Shown here: positions 2,726-52,822 of the stretch, in pieces | How positions within the stretch are numbered: the first letter of the stretch is position 1 | Layout: every line of letters starts with the position of its first letter | Assembly (NCBI RefSeq): GCF_006716885.1 | Contig: NZ_VFPU01000002.1 | Span: forward strand, 1 to 64,000 | From: Ornithinimicrobium humiphilum | GTDB taxonomy: Bacteria; Actinomycetota; Actinomycetes; Actinomycetales; Dermatophilaceae | Reading direction: 5' to 3' | Length of the DNA stretch: 64,000 nucleotides | The notes under the pieces: model-generated | What the model was told of the DNA's origin: nothing | Seen by the model: the letters and a program-made list of their open reading frames with translations, nothing else | Databases searched by the model: none | Program-made: the position numbers and the translations under genes

Positions 2726-3004
2726 TCAGCCCAGCCCGGGTGCGCGCGGACGGACCTGGCCCGGGCGGTCCGGGTCGGCGGCCCGCACGCCGGTGGCACG
2801 GCATACCTCGCTGCGGTGGAGGACCGAGCCCGCGCGCACGGCCACGGGGACCGCGGTGGAGCGGGAGGCCAGCGCGGCCACGCCGGCGAGGGCGAGACCC
2901 AGCAGCAGGTGGTCGGGCGTCGAGAGCGCCGACAGCAGCGCCACGGTGGTGAGCAGCGGCAGCAGCAGGCCCAGGAGGGGCAGGTGCTCGGTGCGGGTGC
3001 TCAC
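2726..3004 (-). CDS. DUF6412-type small membrane protein
   Basis: This 92-residue protein has two hydrophobic segments (about residues 9-26 and 33-45). It ends in an Arg/Pro-rich tail (RPGQVRPRAPG) of the kind seen in DUF6412 proteins, which commonly sit directly upstream of a YidC-like insertase as here. The GTG start at 3004 is preceded by TAACCT (3012-3017) with a 7-nt gap and no Shine-Dalgarno, suggesting a leaderless transcript that continues into the yidC paralogue. The function is unknown; a role in membrane protein assembly is inference from context. Confidence 0.75.
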   Translation of the reverse strand: MSTRTEHLPLLGLLLPLLTTVALLSALSTPDHLLLGLALAGVAALASRSTAVPVAVRAGSVLHRSEVCRATGVRAADPDRPGQVRPRAPGLG

Positions 3005-3133
3005 GTCGGTCAGGTTACCCTGGCAGGGCCTGGGAGGTCCTCCGCCTCGCGTCGGAGATCGGCCTCGCACCGCCGGCCGGACCTCCACCCGCGGTCGGAT
3101 GTGGCCCCGCCGCCGCGGCCCTAGCGTGGGGTC

Positions 3134-3796
3134 ATGCTCATCGCCGAAGAACTGCTCCTGGTCGGCACCGCCCCCGACGGCCGCAACCTGCTCGGCACGC
3201 AGCGGCAGATCGTCGTCGCCGGCGCCCTGCTCACCGAGCTCGTGCTCCGGGAGCGCCTCGACGTCGACGACCGGTCCCGCCTGCGGATGGTGGCCGGCGG
3301 GACGATCGGGGAGCCGTTGCTCGACGACGCCCTGGTGCGCTTCGGCGAGCGTCAGGGGAAGAAGCCCAAGGACGTCCTCGGGTCGATAGGCCGGAAGGTC
3401 GAGAAGCCGGTCTTCGAAAGCCTGGTGCGCCGCGAGCTCGTCCGGCCGGAGCCGGTGCGCGCCCTGGGGATGACGTGGATGACGCGCTGGCCGGTGCTCG
3501 AGGGCGGGCCGCGCGACACGATCGTGGCCGACCTGCTCCGGGTGGTGTGCCGGATGGAGGAGCCGAACTCCCGCACGGGCGCCCTGGTCTCGCTGCTCCA
3601 GGCCGTCGACGCGCTGCCCCGGGTGCTGCCCAAGGAGATGCGCCCGGGCGTGCCCAACCGCGACGTCCGGCGCCGCGGCAAGGAGATCACCAAGGGCCGC
3701 TGGGCCAGCGAGGCGGTCGTCAAGGCCGTCCAGGAGGCGACCGCGGCGACGATGGCGGCCGTCGGGGCCGCCACGGCGGCGAGCTCGTCGAGCTGA
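3134..3796 (+). CDS. GOLPH3/VPS74 (GPP34) family protein
   Basis: The 220-residue protein begins MLIAEELLLVGTAPDGR and runs through an alpha-helical GPP34 fold with a GGTIGEPLLDDAL core. In eukaryotes the family binds phosphatidylinositol-4-phosphate at the Golgi. Bacterial members are common in Actinobacteria, and their role is not established. The Ala/Ser-rich C-terminus may be disordered. A -10-like TAGCGT (3122-3127) lies 6 nt before the ATG, so it is probably leaderless. The gene converges on the MBL hydrolase with a shared hairpin terminator between them. Confidence 0.85.
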   Translation: MLIAEELLLVGTAPDGRNLLGTQRQIVVAGALLTELVLRERLDVDDRSRLRMVAGGTIGEPLLDDALVRFGERQGKKPKDVLGSIGRKVEKPVFESLVRRELVRPEPVRALGMTWMTRWPVLEGGPRDTIVADLLRVVCRMEEPNSRTGALVSLLQAVDALPRVLPKEMRPGVPNRDVRRRGKEITKGRWASEAVVKAVQEATAATMAAVGAATAASSSS

Positions 3797-3816
3797 GCCC
3801 ACCCGCCCCGACGACG

Positions 3817-3877
3817 CCGAGAGCCCCACCTCGGACCGCCAGATCTGCAGATCCGGGTCCCGGGGTGGGGCTCTCGG
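3817..3877. terminator. Bidirectional hairpin terminator
   Basis: A perfect 14-bp inverted repeat (CCGAGAGCCCCACC at 3817-3830 against 3864-3877) encloses a 33-nt loop containing a second small stem. It sits between convergent genes (GPP34 and the MBL hydrolase), so it can end both transcripts. Confidence 0.8.
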
Positions 3878-3905
3878 TGAGTTCCCCGCAGGGGTATGCC
3901 GTGGC

Positions 3906-4532
3906 TCAGTGGCCGCGGTCGATCCACTCCTGGCGGTGCGGCTTCTCCGTGCCGATCGTGGTGCTGCCGCCGTGGCCGGTCCGCACGACCGTCTCCTCGG
4001 GAAGCGTCAGCAGCTTGTCGGTGATCGAGGCGATGATCGTCGGGAAGTCGCTGAACGAGCGCCCGGTCGCCCCCGGCCCGCCCTCGAAGAGGGTGTCGCC
4101 GCTGAAGACCGTGCCCAGCTCGGGGCTGTAGAGGCTGCACGCCCCGGGCGTGTGGCCCGGCGTGTGCAGCACCCGCAGCGTGACCCCGGCGACGGAGATC
4201 TCCATACCGTCGGAGAGCTCGCCGGTCGGCGCCTCCTCGTGAACGCGGTCCCAGAGCATGCGGTCCTCGGGGTGCAGGTAGGTCGGGGCGCCGGTGCGGC
4301 GGGCGACCTCGAGCGCGGCGTCGACGTGGTCGTCGTGGCCGTGCGTGAGGACGAGGGCGGTCACCGTCCGGTCACCGACGACCTCCAGGATCGCGTCGGG
4401 GTCGTGCGGGGCGTCGATGACGACGCACTCGCTGTCGTCGCCGACGACCCAGACGTTGTTGTCGACCTCCCAGGTGCCGCCGTCGAGGCTGAAGGTGCCG
4501 GTCGTGACCGCGTGGTCGATCCGCGCGCTCAT
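3906..4532 (-). CDS. MBL-fold hydrolase, partner of mycothiol-dependent formaldehyde oxidation
   Basis: This 208-residue metallo-beta-lactamase-fold protein has the dinuclear metal motif THGHDDHVD (about residues 83-91), [13 protein letters not shown], the bridging aspartate in [10 protein letters not shown], and the last histidine in [11 protein letters not shown]. Its ATG overlaps the stop of mscR by 4 nt, so the two are translationally coupled. In Actinobacteria this pair is conserved. The hydrolase is thought to act on the thioester product (S-formylmycothiol), which is inference from gene context. Confidence 0.9.
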
Positions 4533-5659: not shown

Positions 5660-5810
5660 GATAGACCCTCCTCGGTCGGTTGGTTGACCCTCACCGTATG
5701 CGGTGCGGCGCAGCGGGTCAGCCCGGGGGTGCGTCGCCGTCGGCCCGGGTTGTCGGGTGGTGGCGGGACCGACGCCCACCGCCCGACCTACGGAGGCGTA
5801 GGTTTGAGGC

Positions 5811-13148: not shown

Positions 13149-13828
13149 CGAGGATCCTCGTGGTCGAGGACGAGGAGTCCTTCTCCGATCCCCTCTCCTA
13201 CCTCCTCGAGCGTGAGGGGTATGACGTGGCCGTCGCCGCGACCGGCCCGGACGCGATCGCCGAGTTCGACCGCAACGGCGCCGACCTCGTGCTGCTCGAT
13301 CTCATGCTGCCGGGACTGCCGGGCGTCGACGTGCTGCGCGCGCTGCGCCAGCGCTCGGGGGTCCCGGTCATCATGCTCACCGCCAAGGACTCCGAGATCG
13401 ACAAGGTCGTCGGCCTGGAGGTCGGGGCCGACGACTACGTCACCAAGCCCTACTCCGGGCGCGAGCTGCTCGCCCGCATCAAGGCGGTGCTGCGCCGGCT
13501 GGCCGAGCCCGAGGAGCTGGTGCCCTCGACGGTGGAGTCCGGCCCGGTCCGCATGGACGTCGAGCGGCACACCGTGCAGGTGCACGGCGAGCCGGTGTCG
13601 ATGCCGCTCAAGGAGTTCGAGCTGCTCGAGATGCTGCTGCGCAACGCCGGCCGGGTGCTGACCCGGGGTCAGCTCATCGACCGGGTCTGGGGCAGCGACT
13701 ACGTCGGCGACACCAAGACCCTCGACGTCCACATCAAGCGGCTGCGCGCCAAGATCGAGCCCGACCCGGGCAAGCCGGTGCACATCGTCACCGTGCGCGG
13801 CCTGGGCTACAAGTTCGACGCCGAGTAG
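13145..13828 (+). CDS. regX3: Response regulator RegX3
   Basis: The 227-residue OmpR/PhoB-type regulator has a receiver domain with acidic residues EDEE near 8-11, the phosphoacceptor in LVLLDLMLPG (Asp about 53) and the conserved lysine in VTKPYSGREL. The winged-helix DNA-binding domain (about 130-225) ends RGLGYKFDAE. It is translationally coupled to senX3. It should control phosphate scavenging genes, plausibly including pit in this window, which is inference. Confidence 0.95.
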   Translation: MTRILVVEDEESFSDPLSYLLEREGYDVAVAATGPDAIAEFDRNGADLVLLDLMLPGLPGVDVLRALRQRSGVPVIMLTAKDSEIDKVVGLEVGADDYVTKPYSGRELLARIKAVLRRLAEPEELVPSTVESGPVRMDVERHTVQVHGEPVSMPLKEFELLEMLLRNAGRVLTRGQLIDRVWGSDYVGDTKTLDVHIKRLRAKIEPDPGKPVHIVTVRGLGYKFDAE

Positions 13829-19087: not shown

Positions 19088-19170
19088 GCGCCCCAGGGTA
19101 TGCCGTGCCGCTGGCAGTCGCCCCCGGCACCGGGCGGGTGGCACCCGGCGCCGGGCGGGAACCCCCGCGG

Positions 19171-21430: not shown

Positions 21431-21536
21431 GGCCCCGATCCTGCCAGCCCGGCCCGGGTATGCCGTCACGCACCCCTGCGGTCCCGCTCCGGCTCGCGTC
21501 CGGCACGGGCACCGCGGCCGGGCGCGGCAGGCGTCC

Positions 21537-22586
21537 CTACAGCCGCGGGCGGGAGGGGCGCTCGGTGCTGACCGGCACGATCGCCGTCTGCGAGGCCGCG
21601 ACGTCGCCGGCGAGCAGCACGGCCTGCGGGTCGGTCGTGTACTTCACGACGGCCAGCGCGACCGGGCCGTCCTCGTGGTGCAGGGCCACGCTCGTGAGCT
21701 GCCCCACCGGGCGACCACCGTCGACGGGCGCCAGCTCGGTGCCGGGCTCGGGCAGGACGTGCCCCGACCCGTCGAGGTGCAGGAAGACGACGCGGCGCGG
21801 CGGGCGGCCGAGGTTCTTGACGCGCGCGACCGTCTCCTGGCCGCGGTAGCAGCCCTTGGCGAGGTGGACGGCGGTGCGGAGCCAGTCGAGCTCGTGCGGG
21901 ATCGAGCGGTGGTCGGTGTCAACGCCGGCCCGCGGCCGCCAGGCGGCGATCCGCAGCGCCTCCGCGGCCCAGGTGCCCGCCAGCGGCCGGTCGCCGACGG
22001 CCGCCTCGAGCCGGTCGCGCGGCACGATCAGCTCGCGCCAGGCGCGGCCGGTGCCGGGGTGCTCGTCGCCCACGGGGCCGTAGGCATGGGTCTGCGGGCC
22101 GACCGGGCGGGGCCACGGGTCGACCCAGGAGAGGTCCTCGCCCTCGGCCGACTCGCTGCCGATCGGCTCGCCGAGCACGGCATACCCCTCGGTGACGTCG
22201 GCGACCTCGACGCGGAGCATGAACCGCATGCTGTCGAGCCAGCCGGCGACCTCCGGGGCGGCCCCGGGCTCGGTGGTGATCCACGTGGTGGTGCCGTCGT
22301 CGACGACGTGCAGCGCGTGCTCGACGTGCCCCTTGGGCGAGAGGATGAGCGCCTCCACCGACGTGCGCGGCGGCAGGTCGGCGAGCTGCTGGGTGGTGAG
22401 CGAGTGCAGCCAGGTGAGCCGGTCGGGGCCGGTGATCGTGACGACGCCGCGGTGCGAGAGGTCCACCACGGCCAGGCCCTCGGAGAGCAGCACCTGCTCC
22501 TTGTGCGGGGCGCCGTAGTGCGCGGCGACACCGGCGTCGACGCCGGTGCCGGCGACGGCTCCGGGACGGTCCAGCAGGACGCTCAT
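21537..22586 (-). CDS. ygfZ: Folate-binding YgfZ/GcvT-domain protein
   Basis: The 349-residue protein has a GcvT-like folate-binding fold and the YgfZ signature KGCYRGQETVARV, including the conserved Cys, near residue 242. YgfZ helps maturation or repair of Fe-S enzymes. An ATG at 22586 with GAGGAG about 10 nt upstream gives the expected length. An in-frame copy of the iterated motif at 22177-22186 encodes GYAV with a rare TAT codon. Confidence 0.92.
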   Translation of the reverse strand: MSVLLDRPGAVAGTGVDAGVAAHYGAPHKEQVLLSEGLAVVDLSHRGVVTITGPDRLTWLHSLTTQQLADLPPRTSVEALILSPKGHVEHALHVVDDGTTTWITTEPGAAPEVAGWLDSMRFMLRVEVADVTEGYAVLGEPIGSESAEGEDLSWVDPWPRPVGPQTHAYGPVGDEHPGTGRAWRELIVPRDRLEAAVGDRPLAGTWAAEALRIAAWRPRAGVDTDHRSIPHELDWLRTAVHLAKGCYRGQETVARVKNLGRPPRRVVFLHLDGSGHVLPEPGTELAPVDGGRPVGQLTSVALHHEDGPVALAVVKYTTDPQAVLLAGDVAASQTAIVPVSTERPSRPRL

Positions 22587-22703
22587 GGGCAGCTCGCTCC
22601 TCGGGGGCGGGTGGAGATCGGTCCTTCCACGGTACGTCACCCCTGGTGCGCCGGCGCCGCGCTCACGGGAAGGGCGCAGTCCGGGCGCCTACACTGCGCT
22701 CCC

Positions 22704-23904: not shown

Positions 23905-23956
23905 GGGTATGCCGTGGCCGGCGCGGGCACGGATCGCCCGGCCCCACCGCATACCC
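23905..23956. terminator. Hairpin terminator built from two copies of the iterated GGTATGCC motif
   Basis: An imperfect inverted repeat has an outer 8-bp stem GGGTATGC/GCATACCC (23905-23912 with 23949-23956). Inner GTGG/CCAC and CCGG/CCGG stems follow. It lies between convergent LCP and nitrobindin-like genes. The outer arms are the window's recurrent motif in opposite orientations. Confidence 0.6.
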
Positions 23957-27065: not shown

Positions 27066-28009
27066 GCTCGCCGCCGCACGTGGTGAGGGCCGCCGGGGTC
27101 CTGCCCTACCGCCAGGTCGACGGCGTCCTGCAGGTCGCGCTGGTGCACCGGCCGAAGTACGACGACTGGTCCTGGCCCAAGGGCAAGCTCGACGCCGGCG
27201 AGGACTGGGCGGCGGCCGCCGCCAGGGAGACGCTGGAGGAGACCGGGCTCCGGGTCCGTCTGGGTATGCCGCTGCCCGAGTCCTGCTACCCGCTCTCCGG
27301 CGGCCAGACCAAGCAGGTCCGCTACTGGGCCGGCGAGGTCGTCGGGGGGAACGGCAAGCTCGAGCACGAGGTCGACGACGTCGCCTGGCTCTCCCCCACG
27401 CCGGCCGGGCGCCGGCTCTCGCACCGCCGCGACCAGGAGCAGCTCGAGGCGCTGGTGGGCCTGCACGACGCGGGGCTGCTGGCCACGTGGCCGCTGCTGG
27501 TCGTCCGGCACGCGCACGCCATACCCCGTGGGTCGTGGGGCCGGCCGGACCCGCTGCGCCCGCTCACCGACGTGGGCCGCCGTCGGGCGCGGCGGATGCA
27601 GGGCCTCCTCGACGCCTACGCCCCCACCCGGGTGCTGACCAGCCCGTCCGTGCGCTGCGTCGACACGGTCGCCCCCTGGGCGACCTCCCGCGGTGTGCGG
27701 CTGGTGGCCAAGAGGGGACTCTCCGAGGAGGGCCACGCCGAGGCGCCGGAGAAGGTGCTGCGCCACCTCGACCGGATCTGCCGGTCGGCCCAGCCCACGG
27801 CCCTGTGCACGCACGGCCCCGTCCTCGGCCCGCTGCTGGAGGGCCTGGCGGAGCGGGCTGCCCCGGACCTCTCCCGCGGCTCCAAGCGGCTGCTCGCGCG
27901 CCTGGTCGACGTCAAGCTCGACAAGGGTGAGGTGCTGGCCTGCACGATGCACGGCGTCGGCGCGGACGCCCGTGTGGTCGCGGTCGAGCGGCACCGCCCT
28001 CCGCGCTGA
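27062..28009 (+). CDS. NUDIX hydrolase fused to a histidine phosphatase (MutT1-like)
   Basis: The 315-residue two-domain protein resembles mycobacterial MutT1. The N-terminal NUDIX box is GKLDAGEDWAAAAARETLEETGL (about residues 41-63). The C-terminal SixA/phosphoglycerate-mutase-like phosphatase has LLVVRHAHAIPRGSW (His near 149-151) and LCTHGPVLGPLL. MutT1 sanitises 8-oxo-GTP or dinucleoside polyphosphates. It follows mshD with GTGA overlap. The polyphosphate kinase gene often found next to it is absent here. Confidence 0.9.
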   Translation: MSSPPHVVRAAGVLPYRQVDGVLQVALVHRPKYDDWSWPKGKLDAGEDWAAAAARETLEETGLRVRLGMPLPESCYPLSGGQTKQVRYWAGEVVGGNGKLEHEVDDVAWLSPTPAGRRLSHRRDQEQLEALVGLHDAGLLATWPLLVVRHAHAIPRGSWGRPDPLRPLTDVGRRRARRMQGLLDAYAPTRVLTSPSVRCVDTVAPWATSRGVRLVAKRGLSEEGHAEAPEKVLRHLDRICRSAQPTALCTHGPVLGPLLEGLAERAAPDLSRGSKRLLARLVDVKLDKGEVLACTMHGVGADARVVAVERHRPPR

Positions 28010-30751: not shown

Positions 30752-33213
30752 CGTGGTCCCTCCTCCAGATCGGTGGCCCGCACGAGCACCGCGGCCGGTG
30801 CGGTGGCGAAGACGTCGACGGCGAGCACGCCCTCGTCTCCCACGTGGTGGTCGGCCCCGCTGAGCGCGTCGCGCCAGTGGCCCGGCGGCAGCAGGACGCG
30901 GGTCTGCCCCAGCCCGCCCGCGGCGCCCAGCGCCCGGGGTGCCCGCAGCGTCAGCGTGGCGGCGACCCCGCCCCGCAGGAAGCCCAGGACGTGCGGCGAC
31001 GGGTCGGCCGCCACCGGCTCGTAGGAGGCGCCGGGCCCGTAGGCCTGGGGCAGCCAGCTGCGCAGCCGCAGGACCCGCGAGGTCACCCACAGCACCTCGT
31101 CGGAGAGGTCGGTGCGGTCGCCGGTCTCGTCCAGGCGGCGCAGCCGCTCGACCCGCTCGGCGTAGTCCACCGGCCGCCGGTTGTCGGGGTCGACCAGGCT
31201 GAGGTCGACGAGGCCGGTGCCCTGGTAGGTGTCGGGCACGCCGGGCAGCGTGAGCTGGATGACCTTCTGCGCCAGGGTGAGCGTGCGGATCGTCGGGTAG
31301 TTGTCGCGGACCGCGGCACCGATCGCCGTGCTCACCTCGCCGTCCTCGCCGACCATCTCGTCGGCGAGCGCGAGCACCCGCGCCTCGTAGTCCTCGTCGG
31401 GCTCGATCCAGGTGCTGTGGAGCTTGGCCTCGCGCACCGCCTTGATCAGGTAGTCGTGCAGCCGGTCGTGGGCGACCCGGCCGGCCCCGACCAGGGTCTG
31501 CCACACCAGGTGCGCGGTGGGTGCGTCGACGCCGTGCCGCGAGGCGGCCGCGGCCGAGGCGGCCGACAGCTCGCGCCAGGCGTCGGCGTCGCCGGCGACG
31601 GCGAGGATGCGTGCCCGCACGTCCTCGCTGCGCTTGGTGTCGTGGGTGGACAGCGTGGTCATGCCGAGGGGCCAGTGCTCGGCCTGGTGGCGGGCCCAGG
31701 TATGCAGTCGCTCGACCGCGTCCTCCGGGTGCTCCCCCACCGCGGGGTCGGCCCCGACCTCGTTGAGGGCGACCAGGCGGTGCCAGCGGTAGAAGGCGGT
31801 GTCCTCGATGCCCTTGGCCATGACCGGCCCGGTGGTCTGCTGGAAGCGGACGCACAGGTCCCGCGCGGCGCCCGAGCCCGGGCGGCGCAGCACCTCCGCG
31901 AGGTCGACCAGCTCGGTGTCGAGGTCGGGCCGGGTCAGGCGCGCCCGCGACAACGCCTCGAGCAGCGGGCGCTCGGGGTCGTCGGACGACGTCCGGTCGG
32001 CGGGGTCGTCGGGCCGGACGTAGGCGCGGTAGACGTGCACGCCGACGAGCAGCTCGCCCAGCGCGGCCCGCAGCCGGTGCTCGTCGTGGCCGGGCAGCGC
32101 CTCGCGGGCGCGGCGCACGAGCCGACCCACCTCCGGGCGCAAGAGCGTCTCCACGGCCAGGCGCTTGCAGCGCTCCACCTCGACCTCGAGGTCGGGCTCG
32201 CCGCCGGTGGCGAACCACGCGGTGCTCACGGCGGAGGCGGTCGTGGGGTCGACCATCGCCCCGAGCACGGCGGCGTTCGCGTCATACCCGGTCGTGCCGT
32301 GGCAGGCCCAGTCGGACGGCAGCCGCTCGGTGCCCTCGAGGATCTTCTCGACCCAGACGGGGCTGCCGGGGCGCAGCCGGTCGCGCAGCATCGCCAGGTA
32401 GCCCTGCGGGTCGGCAAGGCCGTCGGGGTGGTCGATGCGGAAGCCATCGACGACGCCCGCGTGGTGCAGGTCGAGCAGCTCGGCGTGGGTGGCCTCGAAG
32501 ACGTCCGGCTCCTCGACCCGGACGCCGAGCAGGCTGCTCACCTCGAAGAACCGGCGGTAGTTGAGCACCTCGGGCGCCTCCAGCCAGCAGGCGAGCTGCC
32601 AGTGCTGGGCCTCGAGGAGTGCGGGCAGGTCGTCGGCGAGGTCGGCGGTGCCGGGCGCGAGCGGGAGCACGTGCTCGTAGTAGCGGAGCACCGGGGTCCC
32701 CGCGGCCGGGCCCTCGTCGTCCCGCCCGGTGCCGACCGTCAGCTCGCCGTCGGCGAGCACCTCCTCCAGCGGGCGACCGAGCACCGGCAGGCCGAAGCGA
32801 CCGCCGAGGTGGTCCCAGTCGACGTCGAACCAGTGCGCCCGCGGCGCGTGACGGCCCCGGGAGAGCACCTCCCAGAGGGGGGCGTTGCGCCAGACCTCGG
32901 GCACGATCGCCATGTGGTTGGGGACGATGTCGACCACGACCCCCATGCCTCGGGCGTGGGTCTCGGCGGCGAGGCGCTCGAGCCCGGCGCGGCCGCCCAG
33001 CTCGGGGCTCACGGTGGTGTGGTCGAGGACGTCGTAGCCGTGCTCGGAGCCGGGCGTGGCGGTGAGCACCGGCGAGAGGTAGACGTGGCTGACGCCCAGC
33101 GCCTCGACGTAGGGCAGCACGCCGAGGGCGTCGGTGAAGGGAAAGCCGGAGTGCAGCTGCATCCGGTAGGTCGCGGTCAGCGGGCGGCGCCCGCTCGGGT
33201 CAGGATGCGTCAT
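30748..33213 (-). CDS. treY: Malto-oligosyltrehalose synthase
   Basis: This 821-residue GH13 family enzyme converts the reducing-end alpha-1,4 bond of maltodextrins to an alpha,alpha-1,1 trehalose bond. MTHPDPSGRRPLTATYRMQLH is a typical start. Barrel motifs are GVSHVYLSPVLTATPGSEHGYDV, VVDIVPNHMAI, GFRIDHPDGLADP and STHDTKRSEDVRAR. The start at 33213 is preferred over an upstream ATG because homologues begin at this point. No promoter is evident except a weak GAAGAT. A terminator separates it from the upstream dehydrogenase operon. Confidence 0.95.
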   Translation of the reverse strand: MTHPDPSGRRPLTATYRMQLHSGFPFTDALGVLPYVEALGVSHVYLSPVLTATPGSEHGYDVLDHTTVSPELGGRAGLERLAAETHARGMGVVVDIVPNHMAIVPEVWRNAPLWEVLSRGRHAPRAHWFDVDWDHLGGRFGLPVLGRPLEEVLADGELTVGTGRDDEGPAAGTPVLRYYEHVLPLAPGTADLADDLPALLEAQHWQLACWLEAPEVLNYRRFFEVSSLLGVRVEEPDVFEATHAELLDLHHAGVVDGFRIDHPDGLADPQGYLAMLRDRLRPGSPVWVEKILEGTERLPSDWACHGTTGYDANAAVLGAMVDPTTASAVSTAWFATGGEPDLEVEVERCKRLAVETLLRPEVGRLVRRAREALPGHDEHRLRAALGELLVGVHVYRAYVRPDDPADRTSSDDPERPLLEALSRARLTRPDLDTELVDLAEVLRRPGSGAARDLCVRFQQTTGPVMAKGIEDTAFYRWHRLVALNEVGADPAVGEHPEDAVERLHTWARHQAEHWPLGMTTLSTHDTKRSEDVRARILAVAGDADAWRELSAASAAAASRHGVDAPTAHLVWQTLVGAGRVAHDRLHDYLIKAVREAKLHSTWIEPDEDYEARVLALADEMVGEDGEVSTAIGAAVRDNYPTIRTLTLAQKVIQLTLPGVPDTYQGTGLVDLSLVDPDNRRPVDYAERVERLRRLDETGDRTDLSDEVLWVTSRVLRLRSWLPQAYGPGASYEPVAADPSPHVLGFLRGGVAATLTLRAPRALGAAGGLGQTRVLLPPGHWRDALSGADHHVGDEGVLAVDVFATAPAAVLVRATDLEEGPR

Positions 33214-34583: not shown

Positions 34584-35605
34584 CGGGAGCCCTCCTCGGG
34601 GAAGACGTAGCGGGTGGCCTCGGCGGGATCGGGCAGCGGGCTGTCCTTGGCGAAGGCGATGGCGGCCTCGACGCGCTCCTCGGCCTCGCGGGCGACCTCG
34701 TCGCGGAGGGCGTCGTCGAGCAGGCCGGCCTCGCGCAGCCGGGCCTCGTAGCGCGGGATGGGGTCGTGCTCGTTCACCTCGTCGAGGTCGGTGCGGTAGC
34801 CCTGCGCGTCACCCTCGAAGTGCCCGAGGAGGCGCAGGGTCGAGACCTCCAGCAGCGAGGGGCCCTCGCCGCGTCGGGCCCGGGCGACGAGCTCGCCCGC
34901 GGCCTCGAAGACCGCGTCGACGTCGTTGTCCTCCACCCGCACCCCGGGTATGCCGTAGGCCGCGGCGCGGTCGGCGTTGGACGGGACCGCCGTCGAGGCG
35001 CTGCGCGGCACCGAGATGCCCCACTGGTTGTCCTCGACGACGAAGACCACGGGCAGGTGCCAGAGGGCCGCCAGGTTGAGCGACTCGTGGAAGGCACCCT
35101 GGTTGGCGGCACCCTCGCCGGTCACCGCGACGGCGATCCGGTCGGTGCCCCGGCGGGAGAAGGCGAAGGCCTGGCCCAGGGCCGGCGGGTAGCCCTCGGC
35201 GATGATGCCGGAGCAGGAGAAGTGGGTCTTCGGGTCGAACAGGTGCATGTGCCCGCCGCGGCCCCTGCCCAGCCCGGTCTCGCGGCCGAAGATCTCGGCG
35301 GTCATCGCCTCCAGGTCGATGCCGTGGGCGATCGCGAAGTGGTGCGGCCGGTGGGTCGCGGTCACGGCGTCGTCCTCGGTCAGGTGGGCGCAGACGCCCG
35401 CGGCGACCGGCTCCTGGCCGGCCGACAGGTGCATCTCGCCCGGGACCAGACCCTTGCCGATGTCGAAGCCCGGCCCCTTGTCCGCGTGGTACTCCCGCAG
35501 GATCGCCATCTCGTAGGTGCGGACCAGGACCATGGTCCGGTACAGGTCCAGGCGCACCCCGGACGAGGTGTCGTGGTCCTGCGGCGGTGTGACGGTGGTC
35601 GTCAT
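34580..35605 (-). CDS. 2-oxoacid (acetoin/pyruvate-type) dehydrogenase E1 component, alpha subunit
   Basis: The 341-residue thiamine diphosphate-dependent subunit has RTYEMAILREY near 25, HRPHHFAIAHGID, RGGHMHLFDP, and the ThDP/Mg motif starting GEGAANQG and ending VVFVVEDNQWGIS. LLGHFEGDAQGYR resembles AcoA-type acetoin dehydrogenases. ATG 35605 is preceded by GAGGAGG about 6 nt upstream. It is the first gene of the three-gene operon, with an IclR regulator gene directly upstream on the same strand. Confidence 0.92.
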   Translation of the reverse strand: MTTTVTPPQDHDTSSGVRLDLYRTMVLVRTYEMAILREYHADKGPGFDIGKGLVPGEMHLSAGQEPVAAGVCAHLTEDDAVTATHRPHHFAIAHGIDLEAMTAEIFGRETGLGRGRGGHMHLFDPKTHFSCSGIIAEGYPPALGQAFAFSRRGTDRIAVAVTGEGAANQGAFHESLNLAALWHLPVVFVVEDNQWGISVPRSASTAVPSNADRAAAYGIPGVRVEDNDVDAVFEAAGELVARARRGEGPSLLEVSTLRLLGHFEGDAQGYRTDLDEVNEHDPIPRYEARLREAGLLDDALRDEVAREAEERVEAAIAFAKDSPLPDPAEATRYVFPEEGSR

Positions 35606-35698: not shown

Positions 35699-36466
35699 TC
35701 AGGCCTCCGCCAGGTCCTCGGCGCGGGCCGGTCCGGCCCAGGCCAGGGCGACGCGGGAGGCGGCGCGGGTGAGGCGGTGGACCTCGCCGAGGACCTTCGG
35801 CAGCCGCTCGGCGGGCACCGACACCGCGACCGCGCCGAGCACGCCCGGCCCCTGGAAGGGCACGGCCACGCAGCCGGTGCCGAGGGCGTACTCCTGGCTG
35901 TCGACGACGACGCCCGGGTCGTCCTCGAGCTCGGCCAGGAGCGCCCGCACGTCGGTGTGGGTGCGCGGGGTCAGGTCGACCATCGGGTGGCGGGCGAGGT
36001 AGTCGCGGCGCGAGTCGTCGGGCAGCGCGCCGATGATGGCCTTGCCCAGGGCGGTGGCGTGGGCGGCGTCGTGCAGCCCCACCCACAGGTCGGTGCGGGG
36101 CGCCGCCGGCGAGTCGACGATGTCCGCCAGCTCGATCTCGCCGTCGGAGAGGACGGCCAGGTAGGTCGCGGCGCGCAGGTCCTCGTGCAGGGTGCGCAGC
36201 ACCCGGCGGGCGCGCAGCGCGCCCGACCCCTCCTCGCCCGCGGAGGCGAGGTGGGCGGGCAGGTCCCCCACGACATACCCCTCGGCGGTGCGGACCAGGT
36301 AGCCCTCGTGGACGAGGGTGCGCAGCAGGTGGTAGGTCGTGGGCAGCGGGATGTCCGTCAGGCGCGCGAGCGCCTTCGCCTGGACCGGCCGTCCGTGCTC
36401 CGCCACCGCCTCCAGCAGGCTGAGCGCGCGCACGACCGATCCGATGAGCGTGGGACCGCCGGGCAT
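35699..36466 (-). CDS. IclR-family transcriptional regulator
   Basis: This 255-residue protein has an N-terminal winged helix-turn-helix (about residues 8-65, LARLTDIPLPTTYHLLRTLVHEGYL) and a C-terminal IclR ligand-binding domain with TALGKAIIGALP and QEYALGTGCVAVPF. ATG 36466 is chosen because GAAAGGTG lies 7 nt upstream. It lies immediately before the E1 alpha-E1 beta-lipoyl operon, so it is the likely local regulator responding to a carboxylate. No clear operator palindrome was found in 35606-35698. Confidence 0.88.
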   Translation of the reverse strand: MPGGPTLIGSVVRALSLLEAVAEHGRPVQAKALARLTDIPLPTTYHLLRTLVHEGYLVRTAEGYVVGDLPAHLASAGEEGSGALRARRVLRTLHEDLRAATYLAVLSDGEIELADIVDSPAAPRTDLWVGLHDAAHATALGKAIIGALPDDSRRDYLARHPMVDLTPRTHTDVRALLAELEDDPGVVVDSQEYALGTGCVAVPFQGPGVLGAVAVSVPAERLPKVLGEVHRLTRAASRVALAWAGPARAEDLAEA

Positions 36467-40557: not shown

Positions 40558-44292
<3,735 letters not shown>

Positions 44293-44514: not shown

Positions 44515-45765
44515 GTGCCCGTCCTTTCCGCAGACCATCTCTACAAGATCTTCGGCCGCCGACCCGCCCGCGGCGTCGAGGCCCTCCGCGCCGGCGCCAC
44601 TCGTGAGGAGCTGCGCGCCCAGGGCCTGACGCCGGCCGTGGTCGACGCCTCCTTCGACGTGCACGCCGGCGAGATCTTCGTCGTCATGGGCCTGTCCGGG
44701 TCGGGCAAGTCGACCCTGATCCGGATGCTCAACGGCCTTCACCCGGCCACCGCCGGCGACGTCGTGATCGACGGCCAGAACCTGGCGGGCCTCCGTGGGG
44801 AGGCGCTGCGCCGGGTGCGGCGCGAGAAGATCTCGATGGTCTTCCAGCACTTCGCCCTCCTTCCCCACCGCACCGTCGGCGAGAACGCCGCCTACGGCCT
44901 GCAGGTGCGCGGGGTCAACCGCTCCGAGCGCGAGGCGCGGGCGGCCAAGGCCCTGGCGATGGTCGGGCTCGAGGGCTGGGGCGGCTCGCTGCCCGGCGAG
45001 CTCTCCGGGGGTATGCAGCAGCGCGTCGGCCTGGCCCGCGCCCTCGCCGCCGGCACCGACGTGCTGCTCATGGACGAGGCCTTCAGCGCGCTCGACCCAC
45101 TCATCCGCCGCGAGATGCAGGACCAGCTCGTCGACCTGCAGCAGCGCCTCGACAAGACCGTCGTCTTCATCACCCACGACCTCAACGAGGCGATGCGGCT
45201 GGGCGACCGGGTCGCGATGATGCGCGACGGCCGGATCGAGCAGATCGGCACCGCGCAGCAGATCCTCGACGACCCGAAGAACAACTACGTGGCGCAGTTC
45301 GTGCAGGACGTCGACCGCGCCAAGGTGCTGACCGCCGGTGCGGTGATGGAGCCCCCGGCCGTGACGATCGGGCCCGACCAGGGACCCCAGCTGGCGCACA
45401 AGCTCATCCGCGAGCACCAGCTCGACGCGCTCCCGGTCGTCCGTCGGGACCGCACCCCGGTCGGGGTCGTGCTCCCGGGCGAGGTGGCCGCCGCCGTCCG
45501 CGCGGGCCGTGACCGGCTCCCGCTGACCGAGCGCAGCGCGACGACCGTGACGGTCGGCACGCCGCTGGCCGACCTGCTCGCCGACGCCGCCCGCCGCCAG
45601 AGCCCGCTGCTCGTCGTCGACGACGAGGGTCGCCTCGCCGGGCTCATCCCCCAGGTCACCCTGCTCGCCGCGCTCTCGGGCGAGCCCACCGACGAGGTGC
45701 TGGCGCACGACATACCCGACTCCCCCGAAGAGCTGACCGACGACAGCAAGGTGGTGGCGCCGTGA
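44515..45765 (+). CDS. Glycine betaine/proline ABC transporter, ATP-binding subunit (ProV/OpuAA)
   Basis: The 416-residue ATPase has Walker A GLSGSGKST (near 59), signature LSGGMQQR (near 162), Walker B VLLMDEAFSALDP and a switch His in TVVFITHDLNEAMR. The C-terminal part (about 270-405) forms two CBS domains that in the family sense ionic strength or nucleotide. The GAxREELRAQG insertion before Walker A is typical of ProV. It imports osmoprotectant betaine with the next two genes. GTG start with GGAGGG 10 nt upstream; the last codons overlap the permease start. Confidence 0.94.
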   Translation: MPVLSADHLYKIFGRRPARGVEALRAGATREELRAQGLTPAVVDASFDVHAGEIFVVMGLSGSGKSTLIRMLNGLHPATAGDVVIDGQNLAGLRGEALRRVRREKISMVFQHFALLPHRTVGENAAYGLQVRGVNRSEREARAAKALAMVGLEGWGGSLPGELSGGMQQRVGLARALAAGTDVLLMDEAFSALDPLIRREMQDQLVDLQQRLDKTVVFITHDLNEAMRLGDRVAMMRDGRIEQIGTAQQILDDPKNNYVAQFVQDVDRAKVLTAGAVMEPPAVTIGPDQGPQLAHKLIREHQLDALPVVRRDRTPVGVVLPGEVAAAVRAGRDRLPLTERSATTVTVGTPLADLLADAARRQSPLLVVDDEGRLAGLIPQVTLLAALSGEPTDEVLAHDIPDSPEELTDDSKVVAP

Positions 45766-47831: not shown

Positions 47832-48623
47832 ATGACGACACCCCAGCCCCGCACCGCCGAGACCCGCATCTCGGTCGAGCTCGTCCCCCGCAGCGCGGAG
47901 TCGCTCACCGCCGAGATGGCCGAGATCGCCCAGCGGCTGCCCGGGGTGACGACCATCAACGTCCCCGACCTGCTCAAGTTCCCCCTGCGCAGCTGGGACG
48001 CCTGCGGGGTGGTCCGGGGCGCTCCCGCCCGGGCCGACGGCACGGCATACCCCGTCATCCCGCACGTGCGCGCGGCCGACGTGGACCCCGACGCCCCGCT
48101 CCCGATGGCCGAGGCGATCCGTGCGCACGGGATCACGGAGGTGCTGGTGGTCTCCGGCGACGACGCCGACTACTTCACCCACCACACCTATCCCGTCGAC
48201 GCGGTCGACGTCATCCGCCGCTTCCGCGCAGAGCTGCCCGAGGTGCGCGTCTACGCCGGTCTCGACCCCTACCGCAGCGGCATCGCCACCGAGATGCGCT
48301 ATCTCGAGCGCAAGCTGTCGGCCGGTGCCGTCGGCGTCTTCACCCAGCCCTTCTTCGACACCTCCTACATGGCGACCTGGGGTCGGGTGCTGCCCTCCGA
48401 CATCGAGGTGTGGTGGGGCGCGACGACCGTCACCACCCAGGCCTCGATCGGCTACTGGCGGCGCCGCAACCTGGTCGCCTTCCCCCGCGACTTCGAGCCC
48501 ACGCTGGCGTGGCAGCGCGACTACGCTCGGCGCGCGATCGACGCGGCGGGGGAGCAGGGGCAGAACATCTACCTCATGCCGGTGCGCACCTCCGTGCTCG
48601 ACTACCTGGAGGGCGTCATCTAG
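47832..48623 (+). CDS. Short methylenetetrahydrofolate reductase-family protein
   Basis: The 263-residue TIM-barrel protein belongs to the MTHFR family. ISVELVPRSAESL is the N-terminal strand with the catalytic-type glutamate. VLVVSGDDADYFTHHTYPVDAVDVI corresponds to the folate/flavin region, GVFTQPFFD to the later barrel strand, and it ends TSVLDYLEGVI. It is shorter and more divergent than standard MetF (about 290-310). A CACTGT hexamer lies 6 nt before the ATG. Proximity to metH and betaine import suggests a methyl-group role, but the reaction is unproven. Confidence 0.78.
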   Translation: MTTPQPRTAETRISVELVPRSAESLTAEMAEIAQRLPGVTTINVPDLLKFPLRSWDACGVVRGAPARADGTAYPVIPHVRAADVDPDAPLPMAEAIRAHGITEVLVVSGDDADYFTHHTYPVDAVDVIRRFRAELPEVRVYAGLDPYRSGIATEMRYLERKLSAGAVGVFTQPFFDTSYMATWGRVLPSDIEVWWGATTVTTQASIGYWRRRNLVAFPRDFEPTLAWQRDYARRAIDAAGEQGQNIYLMPVRTSVLDYLEGVI

Positions 48624-48660: not shown

Positions 48661-49089
48661 ATGGACGACACCGCAGAGCTCGTGGTCACCCAGCAGGTCG
48701 CCGCGCCCCGGGAGGAGGTGTGGGCGCTCTGGACGGACGCCGAGGTCTGGGCCCGGTGGTGGTGGCCGCACTGGCCCGACAGCAGGTATGCCGTGGACGC
48801 CCGGCCCGGCGGGGCCTACCACGCCCGCAGCGTGCAGGGGCAGGCCGGCGTGGAGGGCACCTTCGTCGCGGTCGAGGCGCCCCGCGCGCTCGAGCTGACG
48901 TGGCGCTGGGACGGGGCCGGGACCGAGGACGCGGTGATCGTCACGCTGGAGCCTGAGGGCGACGGCACGCTCGTCACCGTCCGACATCGCACGGACCCGA
49001 CGAGCACCGACGACTACCGGACGGGCTGGGAGTTCGTGCTGGGCAACCTCGCGAGGGTGGTGGCCGAGGGCCGGGACGGGCACCACTAG
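48661..49089 (+). CDS. SRPBCC/AHSA1-domain protein
   Basis: This 142-residue START-like helix-grip protein has the N-terminal VTQQVAAPREEVWALWTD, a WWPHWPDSRYAVDARPGG turn and a C-terminal GWEFVLGNLARVV helix. The family binds hydrophobic ligands or assists Hsp90-like chaperones; the ligand here is unknown. GAGGAGG lies about 7 nt before the ATG. RYAV near residue 43 is encoded through an exact copy of the iterated motif (48785-48794). Confidence 0.85.
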   Translation: MDDTAELVVTQQVAAPREEVWALWTDAEVWARWWWPHWPDSRYAVDARPGGAYHARSVQGQAGVEGTFVAVEAPRALELTWRWDGAGTEDAVIVTLEPEGDGTLVTVRHRTDPTSTDDYRTGWEFVLGNLARVVAEGRDGHH

Positions 49090-49123
49090 GGCGCACCGGG
49101 GCAGCTCCCCCGAGGTCGGGGCC

Positions 49124-51808
49124 TCAGAGCCGTCGCATCGCGGTGGCCAGCAGCACCGGCTCGCCGACCTCGTCGGAGGCGTCCAGGTCGCACTCGGCCT
49201 CGATCACCCAGTCGAGGTCGCCCTCGGGGTCGGAGATCGTCTGCACGACGCGCCACACCCGGCCGGGGCGGCCCTCGGTGATCGCCGAGTGCTCGCCCGC
49301 GAGGGGCTCCACGCGCAGCCGCTGCGGCCCGCGGGCGTCGGCGTCGAGCAGCACCTCGTCGTGGTCCTCGTAGTAGGTCTCCAGCGCGTCGTCCCAGTCC
49401 GAGCTCGACATGAGCGGCTCCCGCGGCGGCTCGGGCAGGGCGGCGACCTGGGCCTCGAGCTCGCCCAGCGCGTTCCAGCCGTCGTCGGCGACCAGCTCGA
49501 CCCGGCGCCAGGCGGCGTTGCGCACCATGACGCGGAAGGCCCGCTCGTTGCTCGTGATCGGACGGGCCGGTGGAGCCGGCGCACCGGAGGCCGCGCGCGC
49601 GGCGGCGGCCGCGACGAGCTCGGGGTCGGTGAGCGCCTCCCACTCCTCCAGCAGCGAGGAGTCGGTCTGGCGGATGGTCTCGCCGAGCCAGTGCACCAGG
49701 TCCTCCAGGTCCTCGGTCATCGCCGAGGAGGGCAGCGTCTGCCGGATCGTCCGGTAGCAGTCGGTGAGGTAGCGCAGCAGCACGCCCTCGGACCGGGAGA
49801 GCTGGTAGTAGCCGACGTACTCGGTGAAGCTCATCGCGCGCTCCCACATGTCGCGCACGACGGCCTTGGGCGACAGCGCGTCCAGCGGCACCCACGGGTG
49901 GCTCTGGCGGTAGGTCGCCAGCGCCTCCTCGAGCAGCTCGGCGTGCGGCCGCGGCCACGTGACGTCCTCGAGCAGCGTCATCCGCTCGTCGTAGTCGATG
50001 CCGTCGGCCTTCATCTGCCCGACGGCCTCGCCCCGGGCACGGTAGCGCTGGGCGAGCAGCACCGGCATCGGATCGTCGAGCACGGCCTCGACCACGGACA
50101 GCACGTCGAGGGGGTAGGCCGGGTCGTCGCGGTCGAAGAGCTCGACGGCGGCGAGCGCGAAGGGCGCCAGCGGCTGGTTGAGGGCGAAGTTGTCCTGCAC
50201 CCCGGGGGCCAGGTCGAGGGTCCGCCCGTCCGGGCCCGGAGTCTCCCGGCGCACCAGGATGCCGCTGTCGAGCATCGAGCGGCCGAGCGCGATCGCCTTC
50301 CTGGCCAGTCGCGCCTGGGCCTTCGGCTGCTCGTGGTTGTCGCGGAGCAGCCTCGCCAGGTTGGTCACCGGGTCACCGGCGCGGGCGACGGTGTTGATGA
50401 TCACCGAGTGGTCGACCTTCATCCGGGAGACCAGCGGCTCCGGGGCGGAGGCGACGAGCTTGTCGTAGGTCTCCTCGGTCCAGGAGACGAAGCCCTCCGG
50501 CGGCTTCTTCTTCTGGATCTTGCGCTGCTTCTTCGGGTCGTCCCCCGCACGCTCCACGGCACGCGCGTTCTCGATGACGTGCTCGGGCGCCTGCACCACG
50601 ACATACCCCACGGTGTCGTAGCCCGCGCGCCCCGCCCGCCCGGCGATCTGGTGGAACTCGCGGGCACGCAGGATACGCGAGCGCGAGCCGTCGTACTTGG
50701 CCAGCCCGGTGAAGAGCACCGTGCGGATCGGCACGTTGATGCCGACGCCGAGGGTGTCGGTGCCGCAGATGACCTTGAGCAGGCCGTCCTGGGCGAGCTG
50801 CTCGACGAGCCGGCGGTAGCGGGGCAGCATGCCCGCGTGGTGCACGCCCACCCCGTGGCGGACCAGCTTGGACAGCGTCCGTCCGAAGCCCGCGGTGAAC
50901 CGGAACGCCCCGATGCGCTCCCGCACCGCCTCCTTCTCGTCCTTGGTCAGCAGCTGCACCGACATCAGCGACTGCGCCCGCTCGAGGGCGTCCTTCTGGG
51001 TGAAGTGCACGACGTAGACGGGGGCCTGGCGCTCCTGGAGCAGGTCGGTCACGGTCTCGGGCACCGGGGTCATCGCCCAGCTGAAGTGCAGCGGGACGGG
51101 CCGCTCCACGCCGGTGACCTGCGCGGTCTCCCGGCCGGTCCGCCGGGTGAGGTCCTCGGCGATCCCCGAGACGTCGCCGAGGGTGGCCGACATCAGCACG
51201 AACTGCGCCTGCGGGAGCGTGAGCAGCGGCACCTGCCAGGCCCAGCCCCGGTCGGGCTCGGCGTAGTAGTGGAACTCGTCCATGACGACCATGCCCACGT
51301 CGGCCTGCTCGCCCTCGCGCAGCGCGATGTTGGCGAGCACCTCGGCGGTGCACACGATGATCGGGGCGTCGGCGTTGACGGAGGCGTCGCCGGTGAGCAT
51401 GCCCACGTTGTCGGCGCCGAAGACGCGGCAGAGGTCGAAGAACTTCTCGCTCACGAGCGCCTTGATCGGCGCGGTGTAGAAGGTCACGCGCGGCTCGGCC
51501 GCTCCCCCGCCCGCACGGGTGCCGTCCTGACCCGCCAGGGCGAGGTATGCCGCGGCCGTCGCCACCAGCGACTTGCCGCTGCCGGTCGGCGTCGAGAGCA
51601 CGAGGTTGGAGCCCTCGAGCAGGTGCAGGACCGACTCCTCCTGGTGCGGGTAGAGCGGTGTCCCCCGCTCCTGGGCCCACTCCGCGAAGACCTCGTAGAG
51701 GGCGTCGGGGTCACCGGCGGCCCGGCCCGGCGGGATGCGGTCGGTCAGCGTCCGGGGGTCGGTGGCGGGCGGGTGGGCGGCGGCGGGCTCGGCAGGCATC
51801 CCGTCCAT
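49124..51808 (-). CDS. Ski2-like DEAD/DEAH-box RNA helicase with C-terminal DUF3516
   Basis: The 894-residue helicase has motif I STPTGSGKS (about 72-80), motif II as MDEFH, motif III LMSATLGD and motif VI HQIAGRAGRAGYD. An insertion rich in basic residues (DPKKQRKIQKKKPPEG) is followed by a long helical C-terminal DUF3516-type region. Members are related to mycobacterial HelY-type helicases with a presumed role in RNA turnover. The start may be ATG 51808 or 51799. The motif at 51544-51553 is a near copy of the iterated 10-mer. Confidence 0.9.
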   Translation of the reverse strand: MDGMPAEPAAAHPPATDPRTLTDRIPPGRAAGDPDALYEVFAEWAQERGTPLYPHQEESVLHLLEGSNLVLSTPTGSGKSLVATAAAYLALAGQDGTRAGGGAAEPRVTFYTAPIKALVSEKFFDLCRVFGADNVGMLTGDASVNADAPIIVCTAEVLANIALREGEQADVGMVVMDEFHYYAEPDRGWAWQVPLLTLPQAQFVLMSATLGDVSGIAEDLTRRTGRETAQVTGVERPVPLHFSWAMTPVPETVTDLLQERQAPVYVVHFTQKDALERAQSLMSVQLLTKDEKEAVRERIGAFRFTAGFGRTLSKLVRHGVGVHHAGMLPRYRRLVEQLAQDGLLKVICGTDTLGVGINVPIRTVLFTGLAKYDGSRSRILRAREFHQIAGRAGRAGYDTVGYVVVQAPEHVIENARAVERAGDDPKKQRKIQKKKPPEGFVSWTEETYDKLVASAPEPLVSRMKVDHSVIINTVARAGDPVTNLARLLRDNHEQPKAQARLARKAIALGRSMLDSGILVRRETPGPDGRTLDLAPGVQDNFALNQPLAPFALAAVELFDRDDPAYPLDVLSVVEAVLDDPMPVLLAQRYRARGEAVGQMKADGIDYDERMTLLEDVTWPRPHAELLEEALATYRQSHPWVPLDALSPKAVVRDMWERAMSFTEYVGYYQLSRSEGVLLRYLTDCYRTIRQTLPSSAMTEDLEDLVHWLGETIRQTDSSLLEEWEALTDPELVAAAAARAASGAPAPPARPITSNERAFRVMVRNAAWRRVELVADDGWNALGELEAQVAALPEPPREPLMSSSDWDDALETYYEDHDEVLLDADARGPQRLRVEPLAGEHSAITEGRPGRVWRVVQTISDPEGDLDWVIEAECDLDASDEVGEPVLLATAMRRL

Positions 51809-51921
51809 TGTCCGTCATCGCGGCGTCGCGCGGGTCGACTCCGGGACCACCGGTGGCGACTTGGCAGGAACGGCCCCTCGGCCCTACTCTATTTCTGTCT
51901 CCGACGAAAGGTAGTAGGAAA

Positions 51922-52353
51922 ATGCGCACCAGCCGCACCATGGGAACGATCCTCGCGATCCTCGGTCTCGTCTTCATCGTCGCGGGTGGTGTGACCTACG
52001 TGATGGTGAGCCAGGAGCTGAGCCGGGCCAACGTCACGGTGGCCGACGACGCCGCCTTCCTGGCGGGCGACCACGTGGACGGCCCGTTCTCGGCCTTCGC
52101 CCAGGCCCAGATCATCGACAAGCACGCGCTGGACTCGACCGGAGGCAAGACCTACGCCGAGCTCGACCGTGAGGACCCGCTGCGGGCCGTCGCGATGAAC
52201 GCCTCGTTCCTGCGCGCCTCGCTCTTCACCTCGGTCGTCGCCTTCGGTGTCGCGACGATGGCCATGGGCGTCGGGGCCGGCATGATCGTCGGCGGCATCG
52301 GGCTGCGCGCCCGTCCCGCCGCGGTGCGCGACGAGGTCGCCGCGACCGTCTGA
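51922..52353 (+). CDS. Small membrane protein of unknown function
   Basis: The 143-residue protein has an N-terminal hydrophobic helix (about 9-28), an extracytoplasmic loop with GKTYAELDREDPLR, and two further hydrophobic segments near 95-130. Homologues are common in Actinobacteria and are often mislabelled as aromatic ring-opening dioxygenase LigA; no such active site is visible. AAGGTAGTAGGAAA precedes the ATG. A terminator follows immediately. Confidence 0.8.
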   Translation: MRTSRTMGTILAILGLVFIVAGGVTYVMVSQELSRANVTVADDAAFLAGDHVDGPFSAFAQAQIIDKHALDSTGGKTYAELDREDPLRAVAMNASFLRASLFTSVVAFGVATMAMGVGAGMIVGGIGLRARPAAVRDEVAATV

Positions 52354-52370
52354 CCTTCCCCCAGCACCCG

Positions 52371-52404
52371 CGAAGGGCCGGCCTGCTCACGGGCCGGCCC
52401 TTCG
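52371..52404 (+). terminator. Hairpin terminator
   Basis: A perfect 13-bp stem (CGAAGGGCCGGCC at 52371-52383 with 52392-52404) and an 8-nt loop follow the small membrane protein gene and directly precede the -10 of the next gene. Confidence 0.88.
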
Positions 52405-52417
52405 TCATACTGGGACG

Positions 52418-52822
52418 ATGCTGTCGACCGACCTGGCCCGCCGCCTGCTCGCCGCGGGCCTGAACTGGTCACCGATGCCCGGCGACCGCTTCGTGGTCGA
52501 CCGGCCGGGCCTGGCCGAGGAGGTCTTCTACCTGGCCGACATGACCGTCGAGGTCCACGAGTTCGTCGGCGGCAGCGTCATCGGCTTCAACGGCGTCGCC
52601 GAGTGGGCGCTCGACTCGGTCGCCCTCGAGGAGACGGTGTGGCTGCCGCGGGAGGACCAGCTGCGCGCGGTGCTCGGGCACGACTTCGTCGGGCTCGGCC
52701 GCACCGAGGAGGGGTATGCCGTGGTGGCGCTGGTCGGGGGGACACCCACGACGCTCGTCCACCGGGACGCCGAGGAGGCCTACGGCCTCGCGGTGCTCGA
52801 GGTGCTGCGCTCGCGCATCTGA
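52418..52822 (+). CDS. Conserved hypothetical protein
   Basis: The 134-residue soluble alpha-beta protein includes FVVDRPGLAEEVFYLADMTVEVHEF and AEWALDSVALEETVWLPREDQLRAVLG. Similar proteins are sometimes named pilus assembly protein CpaE; no P-loop or CpaE domain is present, so that name is not supported. CATACT (52406-52411) 6 nt before the ATG marks a leaderless promoter immediately after a terminator. Exact iterated motif at 52713-52722 encodes GYAV. Confidence 0.8.
   Translation: MLSTDLARRLLAAGLNWSPMPGDRFVVDRPGLAEEVFYLADMTVEVHEFVGGSVIGFNGVAEWALDSVALEETVWLPREDQLRAVLGHDFVGLGRTEEGYAVVALVGGTPTTLVHRDAEEAYGLAVLEVLRSRI

Follow-up and report, generated by a model that had tools for sequence, protein, structure and literature searches.

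Short DNA words that favor the uptake of a genome's own DNA have been described for two Gram-negative families, the Neisseriaceae and the Pasteurellaceae, which passages of PMC12616744 name as the only families with known uptake sequences. The DNA uptake sequences (DUS) of the Neisseriaceae are words of about 10-12 nt with hundreds of copies or more; they are detected as over-represented 10-mers and fall into dialects that have a shared core and follow the phylogeny (parts of PMC3630211). The uptake signal sequences (USS) of the Pasteurellaceae are also short enriched motifs, with divergent specificities within one family, and their receptor is itself a prediction (parts of PMC12616744). Among actinobacteria, Micrococcus luteus needs its tad genes for transformation, as described in part of PMC4322843. 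Here we describe an iterated 10-mer, GGTATGCCGT, from a stretch of 64,000 nt of Ornithinimicrobium humiphilum (contig NZ_VFPU01000002.1, positions 1 to 64,000), hereafter the window. With a probability of roughly 0.6, we consider GGTATGCCGT(G) to be the local dialect of a DUS/USS-like DNA-uptake signal that works with ComEA, ComEC and Tad/Flp pili.

The word is similar to the DUS in length, in copy number, in being found as an over-represented 10-mer and in having dialects that follow the phylogeny. It differs from the DUS in sequence and in phylum; in addition, the genomes here contain Tad genes and no sign of a type IVa pilus, with no ComP-like receptor identified. It shares with the USS a short, enriched motif and divergent specificities within a family, whereas word, phylum and pilus are again different. 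M. luteus, also an actinobacterium, resembles the genome of the window in its ComEA, ComEC and tad genes. The main text of PMC4322843, however, contains neither "uptake sequence" nor "uptake signal". In passages of PMC6370729 and PMC12236230 the uptake sequence is named for Neisseria only, and none of the sought uptake-sequence terms is present in PMC8467076. No actinobacterial uptake sequence appeared in the titles or abstract starts of the open-licence literature searched, and the matches of the 10-mer itself in that literature were, to judge by the listing, either primers or sequences without relation to this word.

Excess, shape and placement of the word

The preliminary description of the window held that the 10-mer is maintained at the DNA level, and this is supported by its genome-wide excess, its use of six reading frames, its intergenic enrichment and the conservation of the exact word at shared sites. 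The genome of the window (G000; the labels G, g and f denote genomes, genera and families) comprises 3.44 Mb in 5 contigs and contains 446 copies of GGTATGCCGT, 209 forward and 237 reverse, against 0 + 0 for the letter-reversed control. In a counting set of 464 kb, consisting of the window and 20 stretches (400 kb), we found 57 copies versus 0.35, 3.1 and 7.2 expected from Markov models of order 3, 4 and 5; the larger expectations arise because higher-order models absorb part of the motif itself. The 400-kb sample gave 46 copies versus 0.30 expected at order 3, and GGTATGCCGT is the top 10-mer there. In the window, a recount returned the 11 exact copies reported before, eight on the plus and three on the minus strand at the same positions, while 100 dinucleotide shuffles gave a mean of 0.04 and a largest count of 2, none reaching 11.

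The motif belongs to the 10-12 nt class and is non-palindromic. Among the 56 copies with full flanks, a purine precedes the word in 46 and a G follows it in 42, giving rGGTATGCCGTG, and the flanking positions beyond these adjacent bases hold little signal. Single-base variants occur 93 times over the 464 kb versus 13.7 expected, and they are concentrated at four positions, namely 7 (A 10, G 9, T 8), 8 (G 13, A 3), 10 (C 16, A 8) and 1 (T 6), with just 0 to 2 variants at each of positions 2 to 6 and 9. The motif is therefore graded, with positions 7, 8 and 10 tolerant in both the variant counts and the refined matrix. Such tolerance suggests that a binding protein, rather than an enzyme with an all-or-none site, may recognize the word.

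By our own gene calls, 22 of the 57 copies in G000 are intergenic, though noncoding DNA makes up just 13.7% of the sequence. The other 35 copies lie in coding sequence, where they use all six frames, 14 in sense and 21 in antisense orientation, without a bias to one gene strand. For the motif widened by the tolerated variants, the density of copies between genes exceeds that in coding DNA by a factor of 3.5 in G000 and of 1.4 in G019, which represents another species of the genus. The gene caller was home-made, and it left noncoding fractions of 0.51 in G133, 0.68 in G041, 1.0 in G052 and 0.89 in f3, so that intergenic figures for these are void. The word also forces rare codons on genes: the counting set comprises 133,573 codons, of which 35 are ATA, and 11 of these 35 lie inside GGCATACC.

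In the window, four of the 11 copies are intergenic, namely those on the plus strand at 3893..3902, 21457..21466 and 23906..23915, which had been reported as such, and at 19097..19106 (+). The seven coding copies are read as HGIP at 29547..29556 (+) within a treZ-like gene and at 22177..22186 (−) within a LytR_cpsA_psr gene (21675-23897), YGIP at 34947..34956 (+) within an E1 dehydrogenase gene, RYAV at 48785..48794 (+) within an AHSA1-domain gene, TAYP at 48042..48051 (−) within an MTHFR-like gene, GYAV at 52713..52722 (+) in an open reading frame without a Pfam hit, and EVCR at 2798..2807 (−) in a small called open reading frame, also without a Pfam hit. As the preliminary description stated, no single peptide explains the word. 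The two ATA codons that it pointed out, in treZ at 29547 and in E1 alpha at 34947, are present, and a third lies at 22177.

Orthologous genes of the treZ region were aligned from ~20 kb of each of 20 other species of the genus (11.9 kb for G009). The exact 10-mer is kept in 176 of 206 comparisons with equal amino acids, versus 23 expected from control 10-mers matched on codon phase and AT-ending codons; these comparisons are not independent, since they derive from 11 site families, four of which (in 10, 7, 7 and 5 species) supply 201. The treZ copy at 29547, with its ATA codon, is present as the exact word in 9 of 19 orthologues of the same genus.

Inverted pairs were sought in 11 genomes as head-to-head copies within 50 bp, with P values that assume random placement. 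A clear excess was found in g30 (5 pairs in 40 kb, 0.19 by chance) and in g27 (4 in 60 kb, 0.18 by chance), where two of the four pairs lie inside called genes. Elsewhere there are 3 pairs in G000 (0.83 by chance; P 0.047), 1 in g43 (0.17) and 1 in G019 (1.17), and none in the other six genomes. Four tail-to-tail pairs were also found, in G019, G059, G133 and G114. Several head-to-head pairs begin 3-40 bp past a stop codon. Among them is the window pair at 23906-23955 between convergent genes, in which the exact copy at 23906..23915 (+), 8 bp past the stop codon, is the left arm and the variant GGTATGCGGT at 23946..23955 (−) is the right arm. RNA folding gave near-perfect stems for L046 16836-16875 and L237 14840-14890 (z −7.1 and −7.8), a z of −3.6 for L198 6300-6345 and a modest z of −1.9 for the hairpin of the window pair. 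The uptake sequences of Neisseria and Haemophilus form such inverted pairs, with hairpins near gene ends.

Distribution and dialects of the word

GGTATGCCGT occurs in all 31 genomes of the genus (g1), with 57 to 659 copies each except for G009, which has 4. The genus includes G012, which is Serinicoccus kebangsaanensis, and G014, which is Ornithinimicrobium laminariae; stretches of the two share 636/636 and 632/632 31-mers with records of these names. Across the family (186 genomes, 53 genera) the count ranges from 0 to 738 and is patchy by genus. The search at the order level covered 198 genomes sampled from a larger group. Among the DNA stretches analysed, L062 (1,130 bp) was left out and f15 contributed just 15.6 kb. 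No more than 5 copies of the 11-mer GGTATGCCGTG were counted in any of 184 genomes that represent 19 further families of Micrococcales, and a pooled control of 22 Streptomyces loci contains 1 copy of GGTATGCCGT in 476 kb. Among the families sampled, the word is confined to one family of Micrococcales.

Where a genus of the family lacks GGTATGCCGT, it often carries a related or different word. Samples of 40-80 kb suggested CGTATGCCGC(TG) in g18, GTATGCCGCG in g41, GTATG(A/C)CG in g14 and ACGAAGGGGG in g27, and whole-genome counts were then made for the two words CGTATGCCGC and ACGAAGGGGG. The two g18 genomes contain 881 and 946 copies of CGTATGCCGC (reversed control 40 and 40) and only 13 and 12 copies of GGTATGCCGT. 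CGTATGCCGC also reaches 1130 copies in g20 (control 76), one g40 genome has 1384 (control 137), and g1 has 9-120 copies. Both A words are abundant in many genera, for example g30, g43 and g50. The A dialects have the core GTATGCCG in common, which is found 19 times in 21.7 kb of the named species Flexivirga endophytica (reversed word 3).

Dialect B, ACGAAGGGGG, has a sharply bounded distribution. All 16 g27 genomes contain it, in 205-643 copies, and the three g36 genomes have 266, 362 and 432, while each of the other 167 family genomes has at most 21 and the reversed control gives at most 9. Conversely, no genome of g27 or g36 has more than 5 copies of GGTATGCCGT or more than 9 of CGTATGCCGC. 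Dialect B has no clear core in common with A, unlike the DUS dialects, which share a CTG core (parts of PMC3630211); a weak resemblance of B and A words through TWYGNC is speculation.

We compared these labels with a midpoint-rooted tree of one gene, ComEC, from 21 genomes (20 of the 30 genomes with ComEC stretches, and G000; G009 and G114 are partial). Its four dialect-B genomes, two from g27 and two from g36, are united in a single clade (100/100), which falls in a 99/99 group with g43, g40, g30 and g46 and, with midpoint rooting, among the A-dialect genera. On this rooting, the most likely history is a single replacement of dialect A by dialect B. Over the whole tree the dialect labels require 9 changes versus a shuffled mean of 13.5, a number as low as that being found in 1 of 200 shuffles; the labels A2, A12 and C taken singly are not clustered. 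Within g33, G114 (GTACG type) and G116 (A2) are sisters, and g46, which has no detected word, is sister to g30.

Taken together, words of the form GTACG(N)CG in g3, g33, g35 and g6 exceed expectation 2- to 3-fold. They occupy mostly two frames, and the GTACG-type 8-mers are not enriched between genes in g3, g35 and g6 (2.3-fold in g33). These words are consequently doubtful as dialects. In g6, 7 of 9 copies of the longer CGTACGCCCG lie between genes. In g46 and g2, word candidates were discarded after motif refinement drifted to codon-like patterns, and the sampled DNA of G009 and several other genera likewise gave no dialect. As a separate observation, g46 (L063-L066, L200-L202) contains TTTTCGGGGT in 6 copies in 140 kb, all intergenic.

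A putative uptake signal and its alternatives

The machinery that a DNA-uptake signal would need is widespread in the family. A ComEC domain was found in 180 of 186 genomes and a TadA-type ATPase (TIGR03819) above the curated cut-off in 168 of 186; the Tad model also matched 13 of 14 control genomes, just 1 of them above the cut-off, and we therefore count only the 168. In G000, a comEA-like gene adjoins comEC. Its SLBB and helix-hairpin-helix domains score above the Pfam cut-offs and the gene itself below the NCBIfam comEA cut-offs; for comEC, the N-terminal model is above its cut-off and the full-length model reaches 180.5 versus 190.05 bits. In the tad cluster of G000, tadA precedes two T2SSF genes and a gene for a short protein that scores close to the DUF4244 cut-off. 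A type IVa pilus was also considered and set aside: PilM is present in just 7 of 186 genomes, 6 above the cut-off and one strong, and this rarity leaves Tad as the pilus candidate.

On the proposed mechanism, free DNA would be taken up through a Tad/Flp-type pilus, ComEA and ComEC, with a putative surface factor that prefers word-bearing DNA. As word-bearing DNA would enter and recombine more often, the word would accumulate on either strand, in intergenic DNA as well as in every reading frame of genes, and would tend to stay at orthologous sites. A shift in the specificity of the factor in one lineage would let the whole genome drift to a new dialect, and inverted pairs of words could double as hairpins after genes.

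Several points weigh against an uptake signal. We infer sequence-specific uptake, the receptor and the drive; no receptor was found, and no receptor search or modelling was made. The competence genes do not discriminate, in that genomes without a detected word carry them too, and six genomes without a ComEC match (G016, G023, G046, G081, G168, G181), five of which are in 330-760 contigs, hold 26-224 copies of the word. ComEC and the other competence genes were consequently dropped as a marker of motif-rich genomes. No dialect was detected in the 12 genomes of g46, the GTACG-type words of g3, g33, g35 and g6 may reflect codon usage, and dialects as such are known too for the cyanobacterial highly iterated palindrome HIP1. 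The hairpin excess is clear in 2 of 11 genomes and weak in G000; the remaining eight show no significant excess, and in G019 it is absent (1 versus 1.17). Six of the 11 site families in the treZ region belong to a single species, the other five being found in at least two (10, 7, 7, 5 and 2), so that much of the site set turns over; the alignments indicate DNA-level maintenance of the shared sites, and gain and loss of the rest. Finally, G009 has just 4 copies of GGTATGCCGT despite belonging to the same genus, where it stands as a natural case of loss. Its ComEC match (to 8,388) ends beside the contig end (8,504), and loss of competence therefore cannot be claimed.

The best-surviving rival, which we still regard as unlikely, is a HIP1-like element, in which an orphan DNA methyltransferase and linked repair would make and keep the word and a change of enzyme would switch it. 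The usual sites of methyltransferases differ from long, graded, non-palindromic words. HIP1 itself is an 8-bp palindrome tied to methyltransferases; although highly iterated, it is almost missing from some lineages and alternate HIPs with matching methyltransferases apparently take its place (parts of PMC4390886), and this substitution by other words parallels the dialects seen here. GGTATGCCGT, in contrast, is longer, graded rather than all-or-none, and not palindromic, and its hairpin pairs near gene ends are foreign to the HIP picture given in the abstract of PMC4390886. The lack of a palindrome also removes the iterated palindrome from the candidates of the preliminary description, and the modification-system site that it listed is less apt.

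Next, and likewise unlikely, the word could be bound by a nucleoid or chromosome-organising protein, or by a terminator-associated factor, whose sites happen to be very numerous. This would fit the intergenic enrichment and the hairpins near gene ends, but not the 35 of 57 exact copies in G000 that are intragenic and in all frames. A density above 100 copies per Mb, together with a wholesale change of dialect, would also be unusual for sites of this type.

In our estimate it is quite improbable that the word is a recombination hotspot of the Chi kind, recognized by a helicase-nuclease different from RecBCD, for example AdnAB. Chi and the FtsK-orienting polar sequences (KOPS) are, like GGTATGCCGT, short and over-represented and have a DNA-level function. 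Chi sites are typically iterated and specific to a lineage; those known, however, are shorter and far less enriched than this word. RecC (PF04257) is present in 89 of 186 family genomes, including 30 of 31 in the genus, which would suit such a hotspot, yet it is absent or rare in motif-rich genera (g30 0/9, g17 0/2, g43 1/11, g50 1/9) and occurs in 15 of 16 g27 genomes, which lack this word. Since RecC does not track the word, a RecBCD Chi is not supported. Nor does the word show the bias with replication expected of Chi or of a KOPS-like segregation signal: no strand switch was seen along the sampled chromosomes, whose origins were not mapped, and the best co-orientation over all two-half splits of 20 stretches is 0.55 of 66 copies in the closed G019 and 0.63 of 46 in G000 contig 1.

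An origin of the word from codon usage, from tRNA or mutational bias or from the dispersal of a small repeat element is very improbable: although high-GC genomes do yield codon-driven excess words, such as other top words of the 400-kb sample, this origin is contradicted for GGTATGCCGT, though not for the GTACG-type words, by the letter-reversed control of 0, the use of all six frames, the imposed rare ATA codons, the unrelated flanks of the copies and the conservation of the exact word above matched controls. Overall, the preliminary description is supported in its claim of DNA-level maintenance, its KOPS-like candidate and a RecBCD-type form of its Chi-like candidate are not supported, its palindrome candidate does not fit, and the class that fits best, an uptake sequence with dialects, was absent from its list.

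Returning to the DNA-uptake signal, we see an about even chance that these words form a third, independently evolved class of DNA uptake sequences. This class would belong to Actinomycetes with Tad/Flp pili. A single family would hold several of its dialects, one of them having fully replaced another throughout the genome in the g27 and g36 clade, and other families of Micrococcales would have further unrelated words (e.g., CGGATGCCTCG in f19). If so, sequence-selective uptake has evolved more than twice, and it has done so in a monoderm and outside the type IVa pilus. It would also point to unrecognised transformable Actinomycetes and provide a natural series of dialects, both for finding receptors by co-variation and for testing the molecular drive of uptake words.

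Variants in the window and other iterated words

One-base variants of GGTATGCCGT occupy 15 further places in the window. The preliminary description had counted at least five that differ in an end base, and five such sites were located, at 18532, 27263, 30285, 36535 and 51544. Nine of the remainder are changed only at the tolerant positions 7 or 8, and one (10980) is changed at position 4. Besides the right arm of the inverted pair, GGTATGCGGT occurs as a tolerated variant at 28353..28362 (+). The other tolerated variants are GGTATGACGT at 13218..13227 (+), GGTATGGCGT at 27516..27525 (−) and 41611..41620 (−), and GGTATGTCGT at 36270..36279 (−), 45707..45716 (−) and 50598..50607 (−); the variant GGTATGCAGT lies at 31699..31708 (+).

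Iterated words of other kinds were met in relatives. Within the family, G038 (L054-L057), the sole g4 genome without the family word, contains GGTAGCCC 22 times versus 2.6 expected and GGTCTACG 38 times versus 10.3, and G133 of g41 (L209-L211) contains GTGAGGCTTT 8 times in 60 kb versus 0.04, probably as a separate short repeat. Outside it, f19 (G205, L231-L232) seems to have an iterated word of its own, CGGATGCCTCG; its form GGATGCCTCG has 15 copies in 40 kb versus 0.6 expected, and the word lies in several frames, is enriched between genes and forms one hairpin pair. Possible words were also found in f3 (L219-L220; CGGCGTCGT, 22 versus 2.2) and f7 (L223-L224; CCGAGGCGG, 21 versus 2.8), each with hairpin pairs.

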